DNA of 64,000 nt from Protonemura montana (Eukaryota; Arthropoda; Insecta; Plecoptera; Nemouridae). Location of the stretch: assembly GCA_947568835.1 (NCBI GenBank), contig OX387604.1:27638851-27702850 (forward strand), in the 5' to 3' direction. Below are positions 1 to 37,536 of the stretch, one piece after another; position 1 is the stretch's first letter, and the number at the start of each line of letters is the position of its first letter. The notes below the pieces were generated by a model. The model had not been told where the DNA came from and ran no database searches. It saw only the letters and a list, made by a program, of their open reading frames with translations. The translations under genes were made by a program, and so were the position numbers.

Positions 1-621
1 CACCAGTTTAGACTGCAGAGTCAGTGTATCAAAGTTACAGTTTCGTCGCGACAGTGGCACCAGTTTAGACTGCAGAGTCAGTGTATCAAAGTTACAGTTT
101 CGTCGCGACAGTAGCACCAGTTTAGACTGCAGAGTCATTGTATCAAAGTTACAGTTTCGTCGCGACAGTAGCACCAGTTTAGACTGCAGAGTCAGTGTAT
201 CAAAGTTACAGTTTCGTCGCGACAGTAGCACCATTTTAGACTGCAGAGTCAGTGTATCAAAGTTACAGTTTCGTCGCCACAGTAGCACCATTTTAGACTG
301 CAGAGTCATTGTATCAAAGTTACAGTTTCGTCGCGACAGTAGCACCATTTTAGACTGCAGAGTCAGTGTATCAAAGTTACAGTTTCGTCGCGACAGTAGC
401 ACCATTTTAGACTGCAGAGTCAGTGTATCAAAGTTACAGTTTCGTCGCGACAGTAGCACCATTTTAGACTGCAGAGTCAGTGTATCAAAGTTACAGTTTC
501 GTCGCCACAGTAGCACCATTTTAGACTGCAGAGTCAGTGTATCAAAGTTACAGTTTCGTCGCGACAGTAGCACCAGTTTAGACTGCAGAGTCAGTGTATC
601 AAAGTTACAGTTTCGTCGCGA
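1..621. repeat. 57-bp tandem satellite (about 11 copies, runs off the window edge)
   Basis: Head-to-tail copies of a 57-bp unit that begins CACCAGTTTAGACTGCAGAG. Copies differ at only a few recurring positions: CCAGT or CCATT near the start, TCAGTG or TCATTG in the middle, CGCGAC or CGCCAC near the end. There are no spacers, so this is satellite DNA and not a CRISPR array. The left end is cut by the window, so the true size is unknown. Confidence 0.95.
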
Positions 622-24300: not shown

Positions 24301-27300
24301 TATCCATCCGATGTAAGTGACTTAATTAGCTTACTAAACGATATATTAGGCCCTCGTTCTTCAGAATGATGAGATAGCATTGCCAATTAAAGCCTTTTAT
24401 CTTTTTACCACACAAAGCTAAAATAAACTGTTTCATTTATATTTTATAAGCTTTATTCTCCTTGTAAAATTCATAAATACTAAATAGATTGGGAGCGACA
24501 TTTCTAGCTTTCTGTGAGTATCTGCCATAAGTTCATCTTTGGTAAAGTTGTTCCGTGCCCAAAAATGTAGCCCATTGGATCATGCTATTGTTATATAAAG
24601 TCTGGTTTAAAACTTGCAAGGTTTGCCAGTTTTGACATAAGTTCTTATGGAAAGTATAAAACCAGTTTGGGTCAGTGACAAGGTTTGTTTAATGCTGAGA
24701 CATTAGTGAAAGTGAAATAATGACAACAAACTTGAATGCAGGCAGAAGTGACTCCACACATTGAAGAGTTCTGCTTCCCGGATGCTTCAGCTTGGCCTCG
24801 TAAGCCACACTCAAACGAAATGCCCGACGAACAGAGCTACTCATTGGTCATTACCAACGATAAAGGGGACCGCACTTTTGGCTACTGTCGTCGAGTGAAA
24901 CCCGAAGGAGCCGATGTTTGCCTTCCTCTTGCCTATTGCATAATCAGTCCGTTCAGAGCAACTGGCTTCTATTATAAAGTAAGTCTGCTTTTTATAGCAA
25001 CTCTGTTGATAGCAATGCGTTCCATGGTTAAAAACATTTGGGCCAGACATGCTGTCAGATTGTTCCATCTCCCATCTCTTGATGCCTTCTCATTTTCCAA
25101 TGCTAGCTTTTCATTATATTGTCTAGAACTGGAGACTGTATGTATGTAAATTGTTTAAAAAACTAATACATTTTACATTTTCAAGTTACAAATATTATGT
25201 ATTGTGTGTGAATCTGCTGTAAATCTGCTGTAAATCTGCTTGTGTTTCCAAGAGAGACAAACACATAAGTTTGTTTGTTTGTTGATTGCAGGTGCTTTCA
25301 GAACTAGAGTCACGTCATGGCCAACCAGAAGTGCTGCAGACATCATTTATCATGGAGCTGTACAACTGTAGCCTCCCTGGTCCAGGACAGTCCTTGAAAC
25401 CCAGCCCAGATCTCAGCTTTGTTTCACCCATTGCAAATACTGTTCGATCCACCCTCGACTCCGCCCACATGGTCCTCACTTCGAACGTCCAAGCCATGAA
25501 CGGTGCAAATGGAGAAACCAAGATGGATAACAGAACTTCAAGCGAAGTCGATGGCAATAGAGGAAGACTGGTTCATAGTTCAACAATAGTGCGACGTCCA
25601 TTGGATCTTAGACTGGAAGAACAGGATCTCAGACAGCTGTTTTCAGCTGTCAATGTTTCTGATCTGCTGCTGCTCTTTGGCTCACTTCTCTTGGAGAGGA
25701 AAGTTGTGCTCTTCAGTGATTCACTAAGGTATTAACAATAAGCCAGATTTAGCCAAGCTTTTTCAAAGTTTAGTAGAAAAAATTAGTTTTCTTAACTTTA
25801 AATGCTGATGTTTAGGAAGATTTCAAAAAATGTTTGCATGAAATACTTTGCCTGTTCAGCGCTTTACTGAACTTAGCATTGTATTAGTTTTCTTTAATCT
25901 AACCTGCATTCTCCATCTACCTAGGTCACTCACCCATGATACCTTCTTTTGCTTGATCTTGTCAATACAATATTGCCTCCTCTCTTTTTAATTATTAGGA
26001 ACATTACCTACTAACCTCTCAAAAATTGATGCCCAAACGGAGACTCGAACCCTAATCTTCACCTGTCAGCGGTTGCTCGTACCAATTGAGCTACTTGTAC
26101 ACATCATTTTTTGGAGGATTTTAGTGTATTTGGTAAGGTTTTTGGATTGATGAGATTGAGTATCAATTTTTGAGAGAGTTGTAGAGTTCCTAATCATAAA
26201 ATACTCTGAGCATTGCAAGAGTTTGCAGTTGAAATGAGATTTCTCATAGGAGCCACTTCTTTCACAGTCACCATAGAACTCAATCCATTACATTGACACT
26301 AAATTGTATTCCAGCAAACTGTCATCGTGCGTCGAGGCTTTGCAGTCTATCCTGTATCCGTTCAGCTGGCAGCACACCTTTATTCCCGTACTGCCGATAT
26401 CTCAGATTGAATACTGCGATGCACCCACGCCTTACATATTTGGGATTCTCAAACAAGCTGGACAAGTGCCGGTTGTGGACATCACCGACGTACGTAGCTA
26501 TTTCCTATATCGACATTCTGAATGTGTTTTTAGATTCAATAAACCCCCCTAAATAAATTAAGTTTAATTAACACTTGATTCCCCTTGAAAACCACCATTT
26601 TTGTTGGTGTAGTAGTTATCAGTTAGTATTTTTTGAAAAGACAGTTAAAAAAGCAGTGGTTCTCTGACTAAAACCTAGCCCAACTGGTCACAGCTTAGTT
26701 ATTAAAAATGTCTTTGTAATTCGAAGCCATTGCATGGTTATTTGGTATAAGATATTAATAGGTTCTAAACATTATCAGGGCATCGCTGTGGACGTGGATA
26801 CCAGCCGTGTGTTGGTCAGCGTGGGTGACGAGGCCACCATCTTGCCAACACGACTTAGACGTAGCTTGAAGACAGCGTTGCAGATGGTTGGGCAGTTAAC
26901 ACAGCCGACGGAGGCCGCTCGTAATGTGCTGGTCTCGGAGGCTTTTGTGCGGGCGTTTGTTGAAGTTTGTGGTCACTATCAAACCCACATCGTTGCCAGG
27001 CCAGAGGGACGACATTTTGAGGTAAAATTATCTGAAGAAATTTTGAGGGTAGATTTAGATGACCAGTTCTGTTTGGGAGAGAGGTTGGAGGGATGAAAGT
27101 TAAGCAACACTGCGCTGAGTCAGGTATTGGTTGGGTGACCATCATACACATGACCAGTTCTGTTCGGGAGAGAGGTTGGAGGGATAAAAGTTAGTACAGC
27201 AACTTCACTCGCCTTGCTTATCAACCTCTCGACAGCAAGGATTTGTGGAGGAATCCTGTTGTTTACGTTGTACCGTCCTTCTGAAAGGACGTTAAGCTGG

Positions 27301-28474
27301 TGGTCCCCTTGATGCTCTTCGACAGGAGTAGGCTACGTGCCGGCACCGGGTTTCCCCTCCTCCCTTCTAGGCTAGGTTAGGTTCATCATCATCCTCATCA
27401 TCATCCACTCATTCACCGACGCCATTAGACCAGTGCCGCATGGCCAGATGTCAAAACAGTGCGTCGCTAAACACCACAAATAATAATAATAATAATTGCT
27501 ATTCCATGCTATTCCATGCTTGCTATTCCATGCTTGCTATTCCAAGCAATTCATTTTAAATTTAATATGCTGATCAATCAAGTCCCATCCCAGCATCAGA
27601 AAGTCAGAAAGATCGATCATATCATATCATGATTTCTTGACGATGATATCGTTGATTGGTGGCTTGTTGCAGAGAGAGGCATTCGTAGCGGCAGGAACAT
27701 CCCGAGCAGAACGCTCGTTCCTGGAGTGGTTCTCAGAGACTGCCATGTTCCGACGGTTCCTAGAGGTGCGCATGGAACGGGGCAATCGGTTCCGTGGGGT
27801 TTTCGAGCAGCGGGCTCGAGAACGCAGAGATGAAATCGACAAGAACGTTGTACTTGGTCGGCCAAACAAGAAACATCGCACATTGGGTGAGTACATTTCA
27901 CTTTTGTTTTTTATTAGAAGACGCTCTTACTACAGTACCCAATCTCTGTGCTATTTCTGTAGTTTACAGTATTTTGAATTCTATACAATTATTAGTCTAG
28001 CCTTCCCAAAAAGATATTTTTTTGCTGTAATTAAATCAGCATTAGTTAGATATATTTGCTTATAAGTTAATAACAGTTTTATCTCTGCTGTTTGCAAAGC
28101 TGTAAGTTTATAACAAAAAGAACCTTAAAAATTGATGCCCACGCGAAGAATCAAATTCCGATCTCCACCTTTTGCAGGTGTTGCTCTAACCAATTGAGCT
28201 CCTTTTTCTTTTTGAGAGGATTTTTTCAAAAAAGTCCACAAAAGAACGTGTTTAAGTAGCTCAATCGCGGCACTCACATCAGGTGGAGATCAGCTCCAAT
28301 ATTGAGAGGTTATTTGTGTTTCTTATTTAATAAAATTCTTTCAGCATTACAAGCTTTTCAAGTAACAAGTCAAGCATCGAACAATACTTGCCGCATCAAC
28401 TGACTGATATTCATCTCTTGTACTTGTATTCTATTTCAGGTGACAGATTCAAGGAATGGACACCATTCACGTAG
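18393..28474 (+). CDS. DENND2: DENN domain-containing protein 2 family (Rab guanine-nucleotide exchange factor)
   Basis: Predicted exchange factor for Rab GTPases in membrane traffic (vertebrate DENND2 proteins act on Rab9 or Rab13). Coding exons: 18393-20216, 21600-21752, 23553-23700, 24110-24312, 24742-24978, 25292-25728, 26315-26489, 26779-27021, 27673-27886, 28440-28474. That is ten coding exons with GT-AG borders and continuous phase, about 1222 residues. An in-frame TAG just upstream supports the ATG at 18393. Residues 1-700 are basic, Ser/Pro-rich and probably disordered, with islands PPPRKPPRTFAH (about 347), SEIMLRKLENVLKNHQK (about 441) and SVEHIYAVPFE (about 540). The tripartite DENN module follows: uDENN about 740-860 (PHMFPHLFQYVLLVGL, EEFCFPD, FGYCRR), cDENN about 960-1080 (LFGSLLLERKVVLFSDSL, ILYPFSWQHTFIPVLP), dDENN about 1110-1205 (VSEAFVRAFVEVCGHY, MFRRFLEVRM). 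The exact DENND2 paralogue cannot be assigned. Confidence 0.93.
23199..23264. repeat. 11-bp tandem repeat, six perfect copies
   Basis: GCATCCTGGCT is repeated six times without change inside a DENND2 intron (21753-23552). Perfect copies of a short unit suggest a young minisatellite. Confidence 0.9.
26015..26176 (-). mobile_element. tRNA-derived inverted-repeat (foldback/MITE-like) element, copy A
   Basis: Ends are CCTCTCAAAAATTGAT at 26015-26030 and ATCAATTTTTGAGAG at 26162-26176, facing each other. Read on the minus strand, the left arm contains TAGCTCAATTGGT (A-box, 26081-26093) and GGTTCGAGTC (B-box, 26042-26051), the two internal promoter blocks of a tRNA. The anticodon arm is degraded and there is no clean acceptor stem, so this is a tRNA-derived repeat and not a tRNA gene. 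It lies in the DENND2 intron between exons 25292-25728 and 26315-26489. Confidence 0.75.
27061..27496 (+). mobile_element. 5S rRNA-derived SINE, copy 1 (chimeric head, TAA-repeat tail)
   Basis: A 5S-like stretch at about 27090-27140 (AGTTAAGCAACACTGCG, then GGTTGGGTGACC) matches the internal control region of 5S rRNA. It is followed by a body beginning GACCAGTTCTGTTCGGGAGA, a C/T-rich segment with GGCACCGGGTTTCCCCTCC, a TAGGTTAGGTT motif, CATCATC repeats, and a 3' end CAGTGCGTCGCTAAACACCA followed by (TAA)n. A second partial body copy lies upstream of the 5S part. It sits in the DENND2 intron starting at 27022. Confidence 0.85.
28121..28311. mobile_element. tRNA-derived inverted-repeat element, copy B (tRNA-like sequence in both arms)
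   Basis: Left end ACCTTAAAAATTGATGCCC and right end ATTGAGAGGTT are degraded forms of the copy-A ends. The left arm, read on the minus strand, holds GAGCTCAATTGGTTAGAGCA followed by AGGTGGAGATC. The right arm, on the plus strand, holds GTAGCTCAATCGCGGCA followed by CAGGTGGAGATC. The two arms are therefore inverted, diverged copies of the same tRNA-derived unit. It lies in the last DENND2 intron. Confidence 0.7.
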
Positions 28475-28659
28475 CTCACATGCCTTGATGGGGACAGTAT
28501 TCCGTTACCTGGCCTTGCCTAATTAGCACTCTAGTTCATAGATTGATCATAGTTCATAACTGATCATTCAAATTGTGCATCATACTCAATAAGCTAACTG
28601 AGAATCTCAAATCAAAACCTCTGCACTTTGAAGTTAGTAACATTTTATTTTTGAAACTT

Positions 28660-28665
28660 AATAAA
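28660..28665 (+). terminator. Likely DENND2 poly(A) signal
   Basis: Canonical AATAAA about 190 bp after the DENND2 stop codon at 28472-28474. It is the first such hexamer in the 3' flank that I see and is placed sensibly for a short 3' UTR. The cleavage site itself is not determinable. Confidence 0.5.
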
Positions 28666-29096
28666 AAACAAGATTGCACTATTTTTTTATTAGCAAACTG
28701 TTTTTAGTTTTACATTTTGATAAAGTTTTTCAGTGTATCTTCAGACTTTTTGTCAGATATTCCAGCTGCATTTGCTTTCAGAAAGTTTGAATGCCTTCGA
28801 TACATTCTTTTTTTACTGCGTAATATACTGTCTTATATAATACGTTGCAATTGCTAATTAAATCTCTTGTTTTAAAAGTTAGACCAGTTGCCTTGCACAA
28901 AGTATATTGGTGCATACATTTTAGTTTTCATTTAGTTTCCCCCACTCTCTTCACACATTCAGTAGAACTATAGATGCCATCTTGCATTTGTAACAACAGA
29001 AGTATTGATCATTTGGCTGGTAACCTTTCTCCCAGATGCCTTTCAATTATCTGATAGCTGCAAGCAATGCTTGCTTGCTATGCTTGCTTATACTCA

Positions 29097-29438
29097 GGTT
29101 ACATTTCATTGGAAATTTATGATATTATCTCAGTGAACAGAAATGCATTTAAGTGTAAGCTTTAAGTTAAATTTACGTGTTATGTAAGTTTGAATTTCTT
29201 GTATAATTTAAAAGCAGGCAAGATGAGCTGGGCAGCAAGTTGTAAGGAACGGTTGTCTCTTTTTTTTGGTTACATTTCATTGGAAATTTATGATATTATC
29301 TCAGTGAACAGAAATGCATTTAAGTGTAAGCTTTAAGTTAAATTTACGTGTTATGTAAGTTTGAATTTCTTGTATAATTTAAAAGCAGGCAAGATGAGCT
29401 GGGCAGCAAGTTGTAAGGAACGGTTGTCTCTTTTTTTT
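29097..29438. repeat. 171-bp direct tandem duplication, two essentially identical copies
   Basis: The block starting GGTTACATTTCATTGGAAAT at 29097 is repeated immediately at 29268 with no difference that I could find, down to the terminal T run. Such identity in non-coding DNA implies a very recent duplication or an assembly artefact. Confidence 0.95.
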
Positions 29439-30457
29439 TAATGTGAAAATTGTTTTCAATTTTGCAAGTAACTTGTTGCCTTAACTAAGATGCCTTCTTC
29501 GTAACTGATGAGTGAGATAGATAATGGTAGACAGGACGAGAAGGATCGAAAAGGGAATGCACTCAAAAATGTGATTTATTATTTATTAGTACAAAAAAGG
29601 ATATTTGTTGGTGCAAACACAATAATGTACATATATGTTGCCTTACATTGTTTTCCTGAATTTACATTTAAACTTCCTTCCAGTCGTTTGTAGATCAACA
29701 TTGTGAACATTGCATTCAATGATAAAGTGAACAATTTGTTGTCAAATAATGTATAGTTTTATTTGTTCAATACCTTCTTGATATTGGCAATCCATTCCCA
29801 AACGAGCCTTTTAACTTCTCAAAATCAAGCAAGAAGATGGTAGTTTGCATCCCTTAGCCATATAACCTAACCTAACCAACAACATGGTTTGTAGTTTGGT
29901 TTGTATAAGTCAAAACTGAAGTAATTCGATTTCATTTTGGAGTATTTTATCTCATGACAAACCACCTGGCAGCTTCCTCACTGTTAGAGGTAATTTTAAC
30001 ATCTTTTTAAAAAGTAATCAGTGACCACCGTTAGCTTTGTCGATGTCTAAGCCAAGCTCATTTCAAGCTGTAATAGTAGCTGCTTCGCACACCATTTTTC
30101 TAGGGCAATTCGTTCTTGAAATTTGGCACATTTTTTTTATGCAAAATTGATTTTCTTTTCCTCAAAACTTAACCGGTAAGAATATCTGTTTTGGAAATTC
30201 TTACATCGCTAATCAAATAATATATAATCCTGGAACAAAGATTGATGGGAAGAACTCCAAGCCGCTGTTGTAAGACGGTTGACACAAGGTACGTCATTCA
30301 ATGAGGCACAGATTTCTCAGGGTGCGGCTCCTTTCTTCCACCCTCGTGGTTATAGTCATGGCTCGAGTAGATCTTTTATAATGCAAGCATTGAATAAAGA
30401 TGGGGTGTTGTATATTCCTATCCGTATTCTATGATACAACCTCTAGGAGTCTTTCAT

Positions 30458-30838
30458 GATTATTGGAGTTTCACGACGCCCTGTGACACTGGTCTAATGG
30501 CGTCGGTGAATTAGTGAATGATGATAAGGATCATGATGAACCTAACCTAACCTAGAAGGGAGGAGGGGAAACCCGGTGCCGGCACGTAGCATACTCTTGT
30601 TGAAGAGCACCAAGGTGACCACCAGCTTTACGTCCCCTCCTCCACAAATCCATGCTGTCGAGAGGTTGATAAGCAAGGCGAGTGAAGTTGCTGTACTAAC
30701 TTTCATCCCTCCAACCTCTCTCCCGAACAGAACTGGTCATGTATATGATGGTCACCCATCCAATACCTGACTCAACGCAGTGTTGCTTAACTTCGGTGAT
30801 CTAATGAGAACCGATGTTTCCAACACAACAAACAGTTC
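30458..30838 (-). mobile_element. 5S rRNA-derived SINE, copy 2 (most complete head)
   Basis: Read on the minus strand, the head (30838 to about 30750) runs AACATCGGTTCTC, ATCACCGAAGTTAAGCAACA, then GGATGGGTGACC. This matches the A-box, intermediate element and C-box of arthropod 5S rRNA. The body (GACCAGTTCTGTTCGGGAGA onward), the GGCACCGGGTTTCCCCTCC segment, AGGTTAGGTTAGG and the ACCGACGCCATTAGACCAGT tail are almost the same as copy 1, apart from an internal deletion of about 32 bp. Confidence 0.85.
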
Positions 30839-31154
30839 GGTCTGTACGAGTCTCAAATATGCTCCAAATGCATATATTTTCCTTTAACTTGTATTTGCCC
30901 CAACCACCACCACCAACTGTCATTCCCCTGATTAAATTAATTTTTCCAATAATTTCTCCTTTTCTACAAGAAAAACAGTTTTTTAGGAGTGGTGGGAGGG
31001 GGTAGCAAATAGTGTTATGCTCGCGCCTGAATACACACCCCAACCGTTCCTGGAATAAAATATACCTACATACTTAACTATATTGTTAAGCTAGAACCTG
31101 ATTGGCCAGTGCCCATGGCTATAGTTTTCAAGATGAATTTCCAAAGGTTTAGTG

Positions 31155-31510
31155 TAATTCAAGTCGAGACACACTGCTCTAGGTCAGGCATTGGATTAAT
31201 ATGACAAAGATATTATTTCATGACCAGATGACCAGTTCTGTTCGAGTTTAGGAAGTTGGAGAATTTAAAGTTAGTGCAACAGCCACTATCATCGTCCTGA
31301 TAAGGTATCAAAATCTGAAATCTGGAATTAGTAAATTCATTCTGTTGTTAGTGTTGAACTGTCCTTCGGAAGGTTAGGCGAACTGGTTGTCCCCTTCGTG
31401 ATCTTCAACAAAAGTAGGCAAGTGCCAGCACAGGATTTTCGCTGGTTCTCGTCTCAACTAGGTTCACATTCATCCACTCGTTCAACTACACCCTAAAGCC
31501 CAGAGCCAGA
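31155..31510 (+). mobile_element. 5S-SINE, copy 3 (old, diverged)
   Basis: In the same order as copies 1 and 2: CACTGCTCTAGGTCAGGCATT, GACCAGTTCTGTTCGAG, AGTTAGTGCAACAGCCAC, TGGTTGTCCCCTTCGTGAT, AGGCAAGTGCCAGCACAGG, ACTAGGTTCACATTCATCCA. Substitutions are spread throughout, so this is an older insertion than copies 1 and 2. Confidence 0.65.
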
Positions 31511-34500
31511 GGACCTAGAACCAATCTATCGATTAAAGTGTAATTGCAAAGTACGCAAAATGTCTCTGCAAAATGTGCGCTTTCGGCAATACTTTGTTTG
31601 TTCTTAGATAAACTTCCCACGGATTGATTTGTTTTGGTGCTGGTTTGGCCTGTGTTGTGTGCCTGCCTGCCAGTGCAGGAAGGTCGTGGTAACATAGCAA
31701 TACATGTGGTCTTGTCACGACTTAAGACGGGCAGAAGGAAAGATGGCAGGATTGCCCTCCTCACTTTTGGGGGATTTAAACATACTACTTAAATATTCCC
31801 CGACTAACTAGCTCCAGTCAATCAATCAATTTGGATTTTTTTTTACTCAAAAAATAATGTATTACAAATAATAACAGATAGTTTGTAAATATAACTGTGA
31901 GTGATCTAAGACAATCGCTTGTGCATGGGCGTAATAAACAAAACTTACAAACTTCATCACAAGGTGGCATTCTAAATATATTTAATATAGTTATGGTTTG
32001 ATCTAAAGCTAGTTTCAACTTTCAACTTACTGTGTCAACAACTTACTGTGTCAACAACTTACTGTGTCAACAACTTACTAAAAGACCAGAGTTCTCTCAA
32101 AAAGTCTAAAGAAAGATATTTAGTTTTTCTGGTAGGAAGATGTCCTACTATTCGTTGCCTTGTAGTTTCCCTTGTTTCAAAGTCCACAACTAAACAAGGC
32201 GGCTTTGCGTAGCTGAAAATATTATAACCATTGCTGTACAAACACGTAGGTAATAAGCCGGATCTTTGAAGCAGTGTTTTTTTTATATATCCTACTATAT
32301 TGTAAAATAATTTTCCTTTCGATCGTGGATGTTCTTCGCACGATTCTCTCGGTAGATTCAAGGTCAAAGTGGTCAAATGATGAGCAAATCCTAAGTCAGT
32401 GAACACGTTAATCGTATTTCGTAGAGGGTTACAACTTATAAACCCGTGACAAGGCACGGTAGGACTAAAACTTACAAACCAAAACTGAAATCAACCAAAA
32501 TGTAGACCTCCAAGAGTAACATTGTTCGTAATTATGATAGGAACAGGTATGCACATACCTGCAGTGCAGTGTACAAACTAAAGATACATGTCACGATTCT
32601 AAATATTTTAAAGGGTTCAGTGCATTTTGGAGGAAGGGGAAGAGGGTATATGGTGGGTTAGCGAGGCGAGGCGCTTACGAAATATGTGGGAAGAAGAACT
32701 TGTACCAAATGCTTTACAGCCTGTAACTCTACCTTCCACAACGCTACCACCAAGCGAAGCATCGAGACTCAGTTGCTGCTTTTATTGGTAGATATCCAGA
32801 CAGTGTAAATTGCTCAGTGTATATCCCCATTTATATTATCGTTGAACTAGCCACGCCTATAGCTTTACTATCAGAACTTGTACCTTACCTTGTACAATTT
32901 AGCCACAGCAAGCCCACCGCCCACCGGCACACCAGATCACGATAAACTGGTGTATAATGGGTGAATATTTAAGGGTTCGTAAGCCCTTGAGTTACCAAAT
33001 GACCAAAAACAAATGTCTAGTCTTTTCTTCCCAAGTTATTTACATATTTTTGAAAGAGAATTGCAGAAACCTCGTATTTTTTCATCTAGTTCCCCTGCAT
33101 GAGAACCTGATGACTCATAGCGTAGACTCGGTGGTGAATCGTGACTGATCATGAGTGAATTGGTGACCTATTGGTCTAAAGGAAAGAAAAAATGCTGAGA
33201 TCGCATGCCTAGCTTTGTTTACTAGTCGATAGCCTTTAATTGCTGCGAAGGGTCATCTATCAAGCGTCACTCTCTTACGAAATGTGCAATCTAATTTACT
33301 CCATAGTTACAAAGTTAAAAAAATAAAATGGCAAACCTACAAGGTTTTGTTAATTTTTCAGCTCATTTCACAATTTAGGTGGTTATTTATTTACGAAGTT
33401 ACAATGCCTTATCAGCCTAATATCTTTCATCTTCATCACATTGGTAAGTTCCAGATGACTCTATTCTTATTGTTTCCATACATTTTCTGAGCTATTAATA
33501 ATGAAATTAAGTAAAAAATGTTGTTTATGACGCGACGTTGTTTATGGCCTTCCCACTTTCGAGACATGCGTCTGAGCGTTATAACAGTCTGTTCTTCTTC
33601 ACAATTAATATTCAGGTGGATAATTAAAGCATTATTTTATTTTTAATATCATATTCATTAACCGTGACCAATTACCAACAAGTTCAAGTGTTGATGCTGC
33701 CATTACAACACTCGTAATCTCACTCATACAGTGAGAAATGTACTTGCCATGGTAAGGTTGGGCCCTTGAAAATTCTTCTCCAACCAGACAAATTTGTGGA
33801 AAACATTACTCTCAGCCATTCGTTGGGGTAGTAGTAGAAGAAGTTAAATTTATTTTGTAGTGAAGTGCTTTGGCAGTGAAAGATTGCCTCGATTTTCTCT
33901 AGTTTTCAACCACTATTCCAAATTTTGATCGATTATATTGCAACCCCCCCCCCCCCCCTACCCCTCCCCCTGCAACTCACTGGATATATTTGCCTCATTG
34001 GACCAATTGGGTGCAAAGTGGACATTTCAGCACCAAGAGAACCGGGCATCGAACTCATCGTCTGCTGCTAGCTTCGTCTGGTTTGTCTGGTCGTAAACTC
34101 GTAAACTCGTGATATAATGATCTTTTATTTTTACAGACTCGAGATGGAGAATATTGTTGTACCTTGCCGTGCACAAAGTAGTAATCAACCAACCACAAAC
34201 CAGACATATCTTGATCTGATGCTAAGCACAGATACAAAGTAGTTTGGAATATCAGAAAAACCACCGAGGTTAAGTAACATTACGCCAAGTAAGCTATTGA
34301 ATTGACAAATATGACTCAAAGAAACAGTTGTATTTAGAAGAAAGGGTGGAGAAATTGAAATGTTAATGTAGTTTCTATCGACCTCTCGAGCCCATACTAT
34401 TTGAAATTTTACATCCATCGAGATATTGTGCTTTTTGACCATCTAGCCTCCTTAAGAAGCGAGAACTACATTAGCGATGGTTTTAAATTGATAAAGCCTT

Positions 34501-34529
34501 TGAACGTATAGCTCAAACGGAAATTCAAA
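31511..34529. other. Gene-free interval
   Basis: Holds a 16-bp tandem repeat (CAACTTACTGTGTCAA, about 3.5 copies, 32023-32079), a 15-base C run at 33944-33958 and an unassigned 132-codon open frame on the minus strand at 32059-32457. No gene can be supported. Confidence 0.45.
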
Positions 34530-34688
34530 CGCTTACGGGCTTGCATGTAGGTCGGCACCGGGTTTTCCCTCCACCTTGCAGAAAGGCTGGGTTAAGTTCG
34601 TCATCACACTCATCGTCTCGTCATTTGCCTACACTAATATCACGAGTCAATTGTCAAAACAGTGCGTCGTTAAACGTCACAAAGCGGT
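34530..34688 (+). mobile_element. 5S-SINE, copy 4 (3' fragment only)
   Basis: Contains GTCGGCACCGGGTTTTCC, a C/T-rich stretch, CATCACACTCATCGTC and the shared 3' end TGTCAAAACAGTGCGTCGTT. The 5S head and body are missing. The 3' end agrees with copy 1, which fixes the element's true terminus. Confidence 0.65.
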
Positions 34689-35105
34689 CGAGTGATCTCG
34701 ACTTATTGGCGGTCCAAACAGAATGCTATTTAAAACCATATACCATAACCAGTATACCATGATATGGTGTTGTTACACCATGGTTTTTAAACCATCTGTT
34801 ATCTCATGTAAGTTATCGCATGTGGATTTGAGAAAACTCTGAGTTCAAAGACACGGACACGAGTTGGCAAAAAAATATTTGAGTCTTCACTTTCCTCGAT
34901 TCGCAATAAAGTCGTATTAAAAATTTAATAAAAAAATGTTTCGTGGTGTTTTCCCCAATGAGATAACTCTAAATTCTGTCTCGTAACCCATCTGATAGAC
35001 TTATGAAATTTACAATCCAAGGTGCAGTACTATGTCTACCGCTCATATGTCATCAGTATTAACCCAAATCATGGCAATTTAGTTGGAACTTGCATTTTTC
35101 ATAAA

Positions 35106-35594
35106 GTTGACAGAGAGCTTACCACTAATACAACAACGTAAGTTGACAGAGCTTACCACTAATACAACAACGCAAGTTGACAGAGCTTACCACTAATACA
35201 ACAACGCAAGTTGACAGAGCTTACCACTAATACAACAACGTAAGTTGACAGAGCTTACCACTAATACAACAACGTAAGTTGACAGAGCTTACCACTAATA
35301 CAACAACGTAAGTTGACAGAGCTTACCGCTAATACAACAACGTAAGTTGACAGAGCTTACCACTAATACAAAAACGTAAGTTGACAGAGAGCTTAACACT
35401 AATACAACAACGTAAGTTGACAGAGCTTACCACTAATACAACAACGTAAGTTGACAGAGCTTACCACTAATACAACAACGTAAGTTGACAGAGCTTACCA
35501 CTAATACAACAACGTAAGTTGACAGAGCTTACCACTAATACAACAACGTAAGTTGACAGAGCTTACCACTAATACAACAACGTAAGTTGACAGA
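35106..35594. repeat. 34-bp tandem repeat array (about 14 copies)
   Basis: The unit begins GTTGACAGAGCTTACCACTA and ends AACAACGTAA. Two copies (35106 and about 35380) carry an extra GA that turns GAGC into GAGAGC. Every junction recreates CGTAAGTTGACAG. The array is non-coding and lies between the SINE cluster and the protease-homolog gene. Confidence 0.95.
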
Positions 35595-37536
35595 TGCAAT
35601 AGTCAAGTGAACCAGCAGTTATTGAATCACCGAATCGACCTTATGAAACAGTTATTCAGAATTAGCGAGCCATAGACCGAACGACATACGATTACGCCTA
35701 CGGAGGTAGCACAAGGTGCTTGAACACTCATCTTGTGCGACAACCTTACTCAGTCATAATTAAGCAACGTGTGTGTGTGTACGTAATTAACATAAAAATG
35801 ATATTCCCGACCAAATGTAACAATGAATGCTAGATCAGTTGCGTTCCCAGTTGTTACTCTATGCATATATTACTGCATGCGTTATTGAACACTGGAGGTT
35901 GCATATCATTGCACTTACACAAATTTATTCTTGGAAATAATCATTTTCGAAACAATAACAAATATTGCGCACTTCTTAAAATGCGTGCACCTGTTGACTA
36001 TGATCAGATGCAATAAAGGTATTTGTTTAGTTTTGAAACAAATTACTTGATTTTATTACTTTTTGGCAGACGACAGAAGTATTTACTGTTGACTTCACCC
36101 GGATTCAAAGATGAACTAAGAGTACGGATTCTGGTTTAAGCCGAGGGAAATACCAAGGTAAATTGAACAGAGATTCAAAGGTCAAATTGACTCTTTGAAA
36201 GATGTTTGCAGGGCGGCTCTGTCCCGGTTCTGAGAACTTTGCTCACAACCTGGAATATATAAAGATTGATATCGAAATAATGGACATCGTGATTTCATAA
36301 TCATAACACAAGACTGGACATTTCTTGCGATCCACTTAAAACTCGTACAGTTCTGGGCAAATCTCATCGTCCAAGAGCGATGAAAAATCATTTAACATTT
36401 TTGTCATGTTTCTTCTCTTGGAAGTCTGCCCACAGATGACTTTCCTACATTCCTTGTTGTTTAATAAACATTTAAGACAAATATTTCAGTTTATTCAATG
36501 TTATCGGGTGTGACAAGATGCATCGGTTCTCTCCACATTTTGAATTCCATTGAATTTACACGCAATTGTTCAGACAAACTCAGTATGGAACAACTGCCAA
36601 TAACAAAATGTTGGCTTCGTCTTCCCGAGGTCCGATTTGATATCAAATGATCTGACTTCTTGAAAGAAAATCAATTGGAAAGAATTAAGTGGAATTCGAA
36701 AAGTGAAAAATCGTCGTTTCGAAGTCAAGGGCTACAATTTTCTAGTTATCTAAATGTCAGCAACTCTTAACAGCGCCGTTATCCCCTCCACAGCAATCAG
36801 CTTAATCCTGGCGCCGAAAATATGAACCTATGAAAATATGGAAATATGGACCTAATATGACCTAATATGGCCTTTGGACTACGCGGCAGGATCAATGAAT
36901 CCTGGAAAATATGCGATGGTTTAGTTATGACTGAAGCATGAACACAAGAACAGAACTCATTGACAAAAAACGATGGAATATCGGAAAGGAATGGAAAGGT
37001 GGACTGTGATATCAAAATGAAACTGCAACCCCTTTTAACGTTTCTCTTTGTACCTTAAATCTTTGCCGCCTCGAAAATATTCCTCCCGAAAAACAGGAAT
37101 TTCTGGACGAAGGCAGTGTGGCACTATGACGAGTTCAAATGTAAGTGAAAAACTTTGACGATACCGAGGCAGGAAAGCAGGAACTTTGGGCAAGACTTGA
37201 GAAGAGAACAGAAGTTGAAAGTCAGGAAAACTGCACAAAGAGAATGGGGGAGAGACAGTGAAACAAAAAGGAAAGTCCTACAAGAAAACCGTTATTCCTA
37301 TTCTTGATAGGATGTACAAGCCTGGACATCGGTCGGAGACGGAGAAGAAGACGGAGAAGATGATAAAGATAGAGGCGTCTGTGTAAGAGTAAGATCCGGG
37401 CTGAAGTTGAACCGTCACGTCTCCATACTGCGCCGACTAATCACAGGTAAGTAATGACGTCACCGATCCTTTCCGCGAACGCAGATCTTGTTAATGTTGA
37501 GCCAAGGAATTCTAATCCCTACCAGCTGAGCGTAGC
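35595..37536. other. Upstream region of the CLIP protease-homolog gene
   Basis: About 1.9 kb without a supported gene or recognised repeat. It presumably includes regulatory DNA for the gene starting at about 37569. No specific site could be assigned apart from the core promoter listed separately. Confidence 0.4.

Follow-up and report, generated by a model that had tools for sequence, protein, structure and literature searches.

A 5S-headed SINE with a tandemly repeated promoter module in the stonefly Protonemura montana

What are the repeats with a 5S ribosomal RNA-like head that are scattered through the genome of the stonefly Protonemura montana, and how do some of them come to carry the 5S promoter region several times over? 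We approached both questions from a window of 64,000 nucleotides (contig C16, OX387604.1, positions 27638851-27702850) in an assembly of 258.5 Mb in 34 contigs. Searched over its whole length with an nhmmer profile made from 20 full-length genomic copies, by which the window copies are defined here, the window holds five copies of a 438-bp short interspersed element (SINE), of which a 5S rRNA gene forms the 5' end (Table 1). In some copies a 91-bp module that contains the 5S internal promoter region is repeated in tandem. Very probably, this SINE seeds arrays of its own promoter region through a rare duplication, retroposition of the resulting oligomers and later changes of array length in place. 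A first-pass annotation of the window had proposed a 5S rRNA-derived SINE family, and all five of its places were recovered by the genomic-copy profile; it overlooked what matters most, that the promoter module has multiplied in tandem, and with it the extra partial module that stands before the complete one in copy 1.

The consensus of the element aligns with the host 5S gene without gaps and at identical coordinates from 17 to 92 (64 of 76 positions identical, 84%), and SINE nucleotide 1 therefore corresponds to 5S nucleotide 1. The 5S-derived head includes box A, the intermediate element (IE) and box C, the components that characterize a SINE3; their positions are those that we take to hold for 5S genes in general. 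The first 121 nucleotides have a predicted fold that resembles host 5S rRNA, with bases of helix I that differ on both sides, and the 3' end of the element reads GTGCGTCGTTAAACACCACAAA(TAA)n. The consensus lacks TTTT, an observation that is no more than permissive for transcription by RNA polymerase III (Pol III). When seven SINE loci (L003, L005, L044, L048, L086, L083 and L073) were scanned with cmscan, five matched positions 1-120 of the 5S model with 58-67 bits, and L083 and L073, both of which have no 5' head, gave no 5S match; a host 5S gene (L009) scores 117.5 bits with the same model. At the start of contig C11, the host 5S genes (L012-L038) are arranged in a unit of three 5S genes in two orientations, which recurs about every 9,508 bp.

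The SINE3-type reading of the window copies, which the first-pass annotation had also put forward, draws support from this gap-free alignment and from copy 2, which matches the full-length Rfam 5S model with 54.3 bits (E 1.4e-08), the sole Rfam match in the window at E ≤ 1. It had further been expected that the heads would align better with 5S rRNA than shuffled sequence does. This held for copies 1 and 2, whose alignments to the host 5S gene were matched by 0 of 1,000 shuffles each (2 of 1,000 for copy 4), and failed for copy 3, the head of which, taken alone, cannot be told from shuffled sequence (439 of 1,000 shuffles were equally good); copy 3 belongs to the family because its overall profile matches.

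If the copies were independent retroposed 5S rRNA pseudogenes, and not one SINE family, their heads would likewise be colinear with the host 5S gene from the first nucleotides, as they are. However, 38 aligned loci have in common both their 5' and 3' ends, as short, dispersed elements with one of each, and the same body and tail follow the 5S part in all of them, which refutes this explanation. Five fetched heads and copy 2 also carry the same helix I changes from host 5S, and 9,375 junctions lead from a module to one body. We regard independent pseudogenes as practically untenable.

We then counted the parts of the element across the genome, using sequence patterns with up to 3 mismatches allowed, for which each reversed-pattern control returned 0. 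There are 7,893 SINE heads and the 9,375 module-to-body junctions, and so the possibility that only the few copies in the window exist, which would have spoken against the first-pass proposal, can be set aside. The module spans consensus positions 49-139 and is flanked by AAGTTA at 49-54 and again at 140-145. Genome-wide we counted 26,906 module-to-module junctions and 35,916 modules, or about 3.27 Mb (1.26% of the assembly); junctions plus one module per copy give 34,799 to 36,281, in agreement with the direct count. An exact 34-mer of the module had 0 matches in genome_contigs and 0 in viral_contigs. A one-sided strand distribution in parts of contig C1 was seen among the matches listed; an exact minus-strand match at L059 is absent there, and nothing is concluded from this bias.

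Individual loci show what these numbers consist of. Loci L039-L068 were picked by similarity to the tail, not the head, and yielded 31 elements with an end near the tail match. Of these, 16 combine a head with one module, 4 a head with two and 1 a head with six; another 4 lack the head and have one to three modules, and in 6 no module is complete (module numbers per copy follow a looser rule, and a second count gives one or two fewer complete modules at some loci). Tandem Repeats Finder reports a period of 91 with 10.1 and 13.1 copies in L069. At a few loci the arrays reach beyond the ends of the SINE: in L073, 22 modules stand in a 2.9-kb stretch with neither head nor body, and L085 has 7 modules without a body within the fetched stretch. 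These are two properties of a SINE-derived satellite, tandem units drawn from a portion of a SINE and, at these loci, arrays outside it. A different duplication of the head occurs in L006 (1409-1949), where 5S part 1-92 is followed directly by a complete SINE from nucleotide 1.

Multi-module copies behave as insertions in their own right. We examined 54 copies that have a 3' end and enough flank, seeking the duplication close to the 5' boundary. Target-site duplications of at least 8 bp flank 30 of the 54 copies, compared with 1.5% of 2,862 mismatched flank pairs, and 24 of the 38 full-head copies; the target-site duplications asked for by the first-pass annotation are thus present elsewhere in the genome, and none was found in the flanks of copy 1. 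Among the multi-module copies, 10 of the 20 tested carry a duplication of at least 10 bp (Table 1), although the long duplication of L049 sits in locally repeated sequence. Further evidence comes from L069-L072, which are copies of one duplicated segment of C1. At the insertion point of the four-module SINE of L072, L069 has the target only once, and the point that corresponds to the ten-module SINE of L069 is empty in L072. The inverted arrays of L069-L072 were also considered as a foldback transposon, a reading that we rejected: they are separate SINE insertions in opposite orientation within the duplicated segment.

Headless copies have preferred starts, with 7 of 15 beginning at consensus 101-116 (p 4e-06 if starts are uniform, with positions assigned by hand and locus-edge copies omitted). 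Internal transcription starts are disfavoured as their source; some truncated copies have no promoter downstream, and it is therefore more likely that the reverse transcriptase stopped where the 5S part is folded.

The same duplicated segment of C1 shows that arrays do not stay as they were inserted. The insertion shared by L069, L070 and L071 has 10, 9 and 10 modules, respectively, and a second, shared by L069, L070 and L072, has 13, 6 and 5; in L071 this second insertion has lost its 5' end and retains 3 modules, and in L072 it has lost its 3' end. Because module numbers differ at shared insertion sites, arrays must also change length in place. L070 has lost one module relative to L069, in which modules 2-5 reappear almost unchanged as modules 6-9.

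Could all arrays have arisen in this manner, by slippage or unequal exchange at each locus after insertion, without multi-module SINEs ever transposing as such? The length differences between homologous insertions and the visible higher-order repeats would fit, as would L086, in which modules 2-6 are mutually identical, and elements with at least 4 modules (n = 17) are slightly more homogeneous within arrays than between them (mean distance 0.045 versus 0.051; within lower in 13 of 17), most strongly in L086 (0.009 versus 0.032), the minus-strand array of L069, L078 and L083. However, pieces with two or three complete modules (n = 17, the array of L090 counting as two pieces) are about as distant within (0.053) as from other loci (0.056), with the within value lower in 11 of 17. 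Inner modules also have a G at consensus 70 in common (80 of 116, compared with 5 of 25 strictly single-module copies, bearing in mind that the modules of one array are not independent). Moreover, independent recombination at AAGTTA in many loci would be expected to leave the reciprocal deletion product, a head joined straight to a body, and this occurs 0 times genome-wide with a pattern of the same length and tolerance. The missing product indicates that the first duplication was rare, and an origin of the arrays wholly in place is improbable.

Several observations weigh against the combination of retroposed oligomers and later change in place that we favour. No duplication of 8 bp or more was found for 24 of the 54 copies, and 10 of the 20 multi-module copies show 7 bp or less, although three of these ten (L069, L070 and L071) are a single shared insertion. 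At that shared site the modules of L071 are quite different from those of L069 and L070; arrays can therefore be replaced, which makes module ancestry harder to read. L086 has a 13-bp duplication, but nearly identical modules stand beside a body with 17 differences from the consensus; part of the array may be younger than the insertion or have been homogenized afterwards, or the body may come from another subfamily. Transcription by Pol III is deduced from sequence. Finally, the best candidate for a partner long interspersed element (LINE), at L102, is a lead only, which comes from a similarity of 22 nucleotides.

L102 is a LINE with RNase H and an open frame of 1246 amino acids that ends in GTGCCGTTAAACCCCACAAA(ACAA)n, compared with GTGCGTCGTTAAACACCACAAA(TAA)n in the SINE. 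The terminal similarity scores 15, against a best of 14 in 1,000 shuffles, with tails that differ, and concerns one of 15 reverse transcriptase loci (L091-L105). The others showed no such tail on the LINE's own strand near the end of the frame within the fetched stretches; the tail similarity was not found in L103 and L104 either, which represent related families of 1261 and 1239 amino acids with 45-46% identity to L102. A SINE match in L099 was rejected, being an unrelated reverse-strand SINE copy and not the end of the LINE. We presume that L102 belongs to the I clade, from its RNase H domain and from general features of that clade. Many reverse transcriptase matches with long open frames lie in C11 at 0-0.93 Mb, near the 5S array.

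Since the repeated unit is the promoter half of the head, its multiplication might instead reflect selection, with several 5S-type promoters being transcribed better and array length acting as a trait of promoter strength. Two papers (PMC3272025, PMC8010984) suggest that a retroposed 5S promoter works poorly unless upstream signals are present, in line with such an advantage. The bodies of both classes, however, have diverged about equally far from the common consensus, with a median of 0.034 in multi-module (n = 24) and 0.031 in single-module elements (n = 27), or of 0.025 (n = 10) and 0.033 (n = 20) when only the tail-chosen loci are counted; neither class is therefore clearly the younger. 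An age comparison from the 20 divergence-measured copies was set aside, as all were single-module by choice and say nothing about multi-module ones. A subfamily marked by A82 and T95 of the consensus, which lie in or near box C, has also spread almost exclusively as single-module copies (L044, L048, L050, L053, L055 and L057): A82 occurs in 10 of 25 single-module copies and 5 of 190 modules of multi-module elements, and T95 in 9 of 25 and 6 of 190. Selection for promoter strength seems doubtful to us.

We propose the following course of events. A 5S gene supplied the first ~121 nucleotides, with the transcription start, the internal promoter and a 5S-like fold, ahead of a body of ~300 nucleotides and the 3' end with its (TAA)n tail. 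RNA copies would presumably be made by Pol III from the 5S-type internal promoter and inserted by target-primed reverse transcription, a step for which the duplications speak directly and in which the enzyme may be that of an I-clade LINE. A rare duplication between the AAGTTA repeats 91 bp apart, to which the junction and the missing reciprocal product point, would have given the second promoter module. Instead of an exchange, the reverse transcriptase may have switched templates at AAGTTA, and our data are compatible with both routes. Copies with two to several modules would then have spread as insertions. Their arrays afterwards gained and lost modules where they stood, for which unequal exchange between 91-bp units, never going below one module, is the simplest account. 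The outcome is a graded series that begins with one-module SINEs, passes through SINEs with as many as 13 modules among those examined and ends with 91-bp arrays that have neither head nor body.

Table 1 Copies of the SINE in the window, with their parts, and multi-module copies elsewhere in the genome that carry a target-site duplication (positions refer to the window)
Feature	Position	Strand	Consensus	Modules	Remarks
Copy 1 (L039)	27057-27486	+		one and a half	5'-truncated; nhmmer 27057-27102 and 27097-27486
Copy 1, partial module	27057-27096	+	100-139
Copy 1, complete module	27097-27187	+	49-139
Copy 1, body and tail	27188-27486	+			then (TAA)n-like tail up to about 27500
Copy 1, module-to-module junction GGATGAAA/GTTAAGCAACACTGCGCTG	27091-27117	+			exact match; hallmark of the tandem promoter module
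Copy 2	30841-30459	-	1-433	1	consensus range from nhmmer
Copy 2, 5S head	30841 down to about 30721	-			complete; Rfam RF00001 match at 30841-30726
Copy 3	31142-31535	+	49-397		nhmmer E 4.7e-37; old, diverged, about 66% to consensus
Copy 4	34239-34685	+			old; nhmmer E 1.1e-07 and 4e-18
Copy 4, promoter part	34259-34394	+	41-189		old
Copy 4, 3' part	34551-34683	+	291-432
Copy 5, 3'-end fragment	3237-3121	-	337-417		core 3221-3141 aligned to consensus 337-417; nhmmer E 1.4e-15
L086				7	full head; 13-bp duplication
L083				7	begins mid-module
L082				6
L084				5
L072		-		4	full head
L054		+		2
L041, L049, L064, L087				2	dimers

Within the window, copies differ widely in preservation. Copy 1 shares 96.7% identity with the consensus across 390 bp; it has no 5' head, beginning at consensus 100-102 with the promoter half retained. 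In copy 2 the body has an internal deletion and the 3' end is altered (85.5% to the consensus over a 407-column alignment). The two had been called very similar to each other, and are 84.8% identical over a 348-column alignment. Copy 3 is old, as the first-pass annotation had judged; the start at 34530 that it gave for copy 4 lies too far in and leaves out the old promoter part.

Copy 1 apparently lies inside a short intron (27049-27672) of a DENN-domain gene (DENN at 25286-25735, dDENN at 27574-27903). The putative splice donor at 27049 stands about 8-10 nucleotides before the start of the copy; donor and acceptor were both read by eye. The window also encodes a Scarface-type clip-domain protein, and at 29099-29430 about 165 bp are repeated in tandem almost exactly, again as judged by eye. 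A stretch at 28138-28200, common to the window and L101 (GATGCCCA...CCGATCTCCACCTTT...GCTCT), appears to be another repeat, tRNA-like and in minus-strand orientation, and the 3' half of L101 is an inverted repeat made of two tRNA-like repeat copies in opposite orientation. As to the host, its ribosomal protein L9 is closest, among solved structures, to chain 4v6w_CH, which we take to be from the Drosophila ribosome; a pattern of six TTAGG repeats has 13,014 matches in the genome; and the cuticle-protein family Chitin_bind_4 has 130 matches in the host genome, compared with matches in 0 of 14 prokaryote controls. A Chitin_bind_4 family of this size is a mark of arthropods, and together with the clip-domain protein these findings identify the host as one.

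Among known retroposons, SVA is likewise non-autonomous with an internal variable tandem repeat, but it is composite and its tandem repeat is not a 5S-type promoter. In dimeric SINEs such as Alu (named in PMC10702118) and Twin (cited in PMC8010984), a duplicated promoter-bearing part also spreads as a unit; there it is a fixed dimer, whereas here the number of partial-head modules is open-ended. SINEs with 5S heads (SINE3) have been described in fishes and mammals and also in insects, among them Lepidoptera and Tribolium (PMC3272025, PMC8010984, PMC10886601). The first-pass remark that few arthropod cases are known thus needs correcting, since examples from Lepidoptera (HaSE3, PxSE4, PxSE5, LaSE2 and CsSE2) and a beetle (SINE3-1_TC) are already in print (PMC3272025, PMC8010984). 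These elements resemble ours in a 5S-derived head with an internal promoter, a further body, a simple-repeat tail, target-site duplications and hundreds to thousands of copies; they differ in having (TGA)n and (ATGT)n tails and, for HaSE3, an RTE-type partner. The main texts of PMC3272025 and PMC8010984 never use the word 'tandem', and at the level of titles and abstracts we found no tandem promoter modules in a 5S-headed SINE, which is not to claim their absence from print.

The closest parallel for the arrays is in squamate reptiles, in which SINE-derived satellites (sSats) are known from the SINEs Squam1-3 (PMC10702118). There, sSats too are tandem repeats from part of a SINE, ranging from internally duplicated SINEs to arrays; orthologous loci differ in length, and homogeneity rises with array length. 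Squam1-3 are not stated there to be 5S-headed, whereas in our family it is the 5S promoter region that forms the unit. That source also describes arrays that keep both SINE ends as an uncommon variant. In our duplication test, the 20 multi-module copies had been selected for having a 3' end, and 14 of them also start at consensus 1-4. The family combines the tested features of both systems, with the build of a SINE3 and a promoter region that behaves as a SINE-derived satellite. The SINE3 type was already known in insects, to which our analysis adds a 5S-headed SINE in an arthropod, one whose promoter is turning into a satellite.

A bolder and quite speculative proposal, which we think unlikely as a whole, is that the SINE multiplies its own 5S-type promoter in tandem, spreads as promoter arrays of differing length and seeds a 5S-promoter satellite, so that one arthropod genome would hold roughly 36,000 potential TFIIIA-type sites. 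If this were true, array length would determine how strongly the element is transcribed, or would titrate TFIIIA, and the element would let us observe a stage midway between retroposon and satellite. The conversion of a transposon into a satellite is usually seen only afterwards. Here its stages coexist in one chromosome-scale genome: SINEs with a single module, dimers, SINEs that carry target-site duplications and enclose long arrays, and arrays that lack the SINE ends. In addition, duplicated segments supply filled and empty sites as well as differences in array length at one insertion. Because the repeated unit is the internal promoter region, the effect of promoter number on the success of a SINE becomes directly testable.

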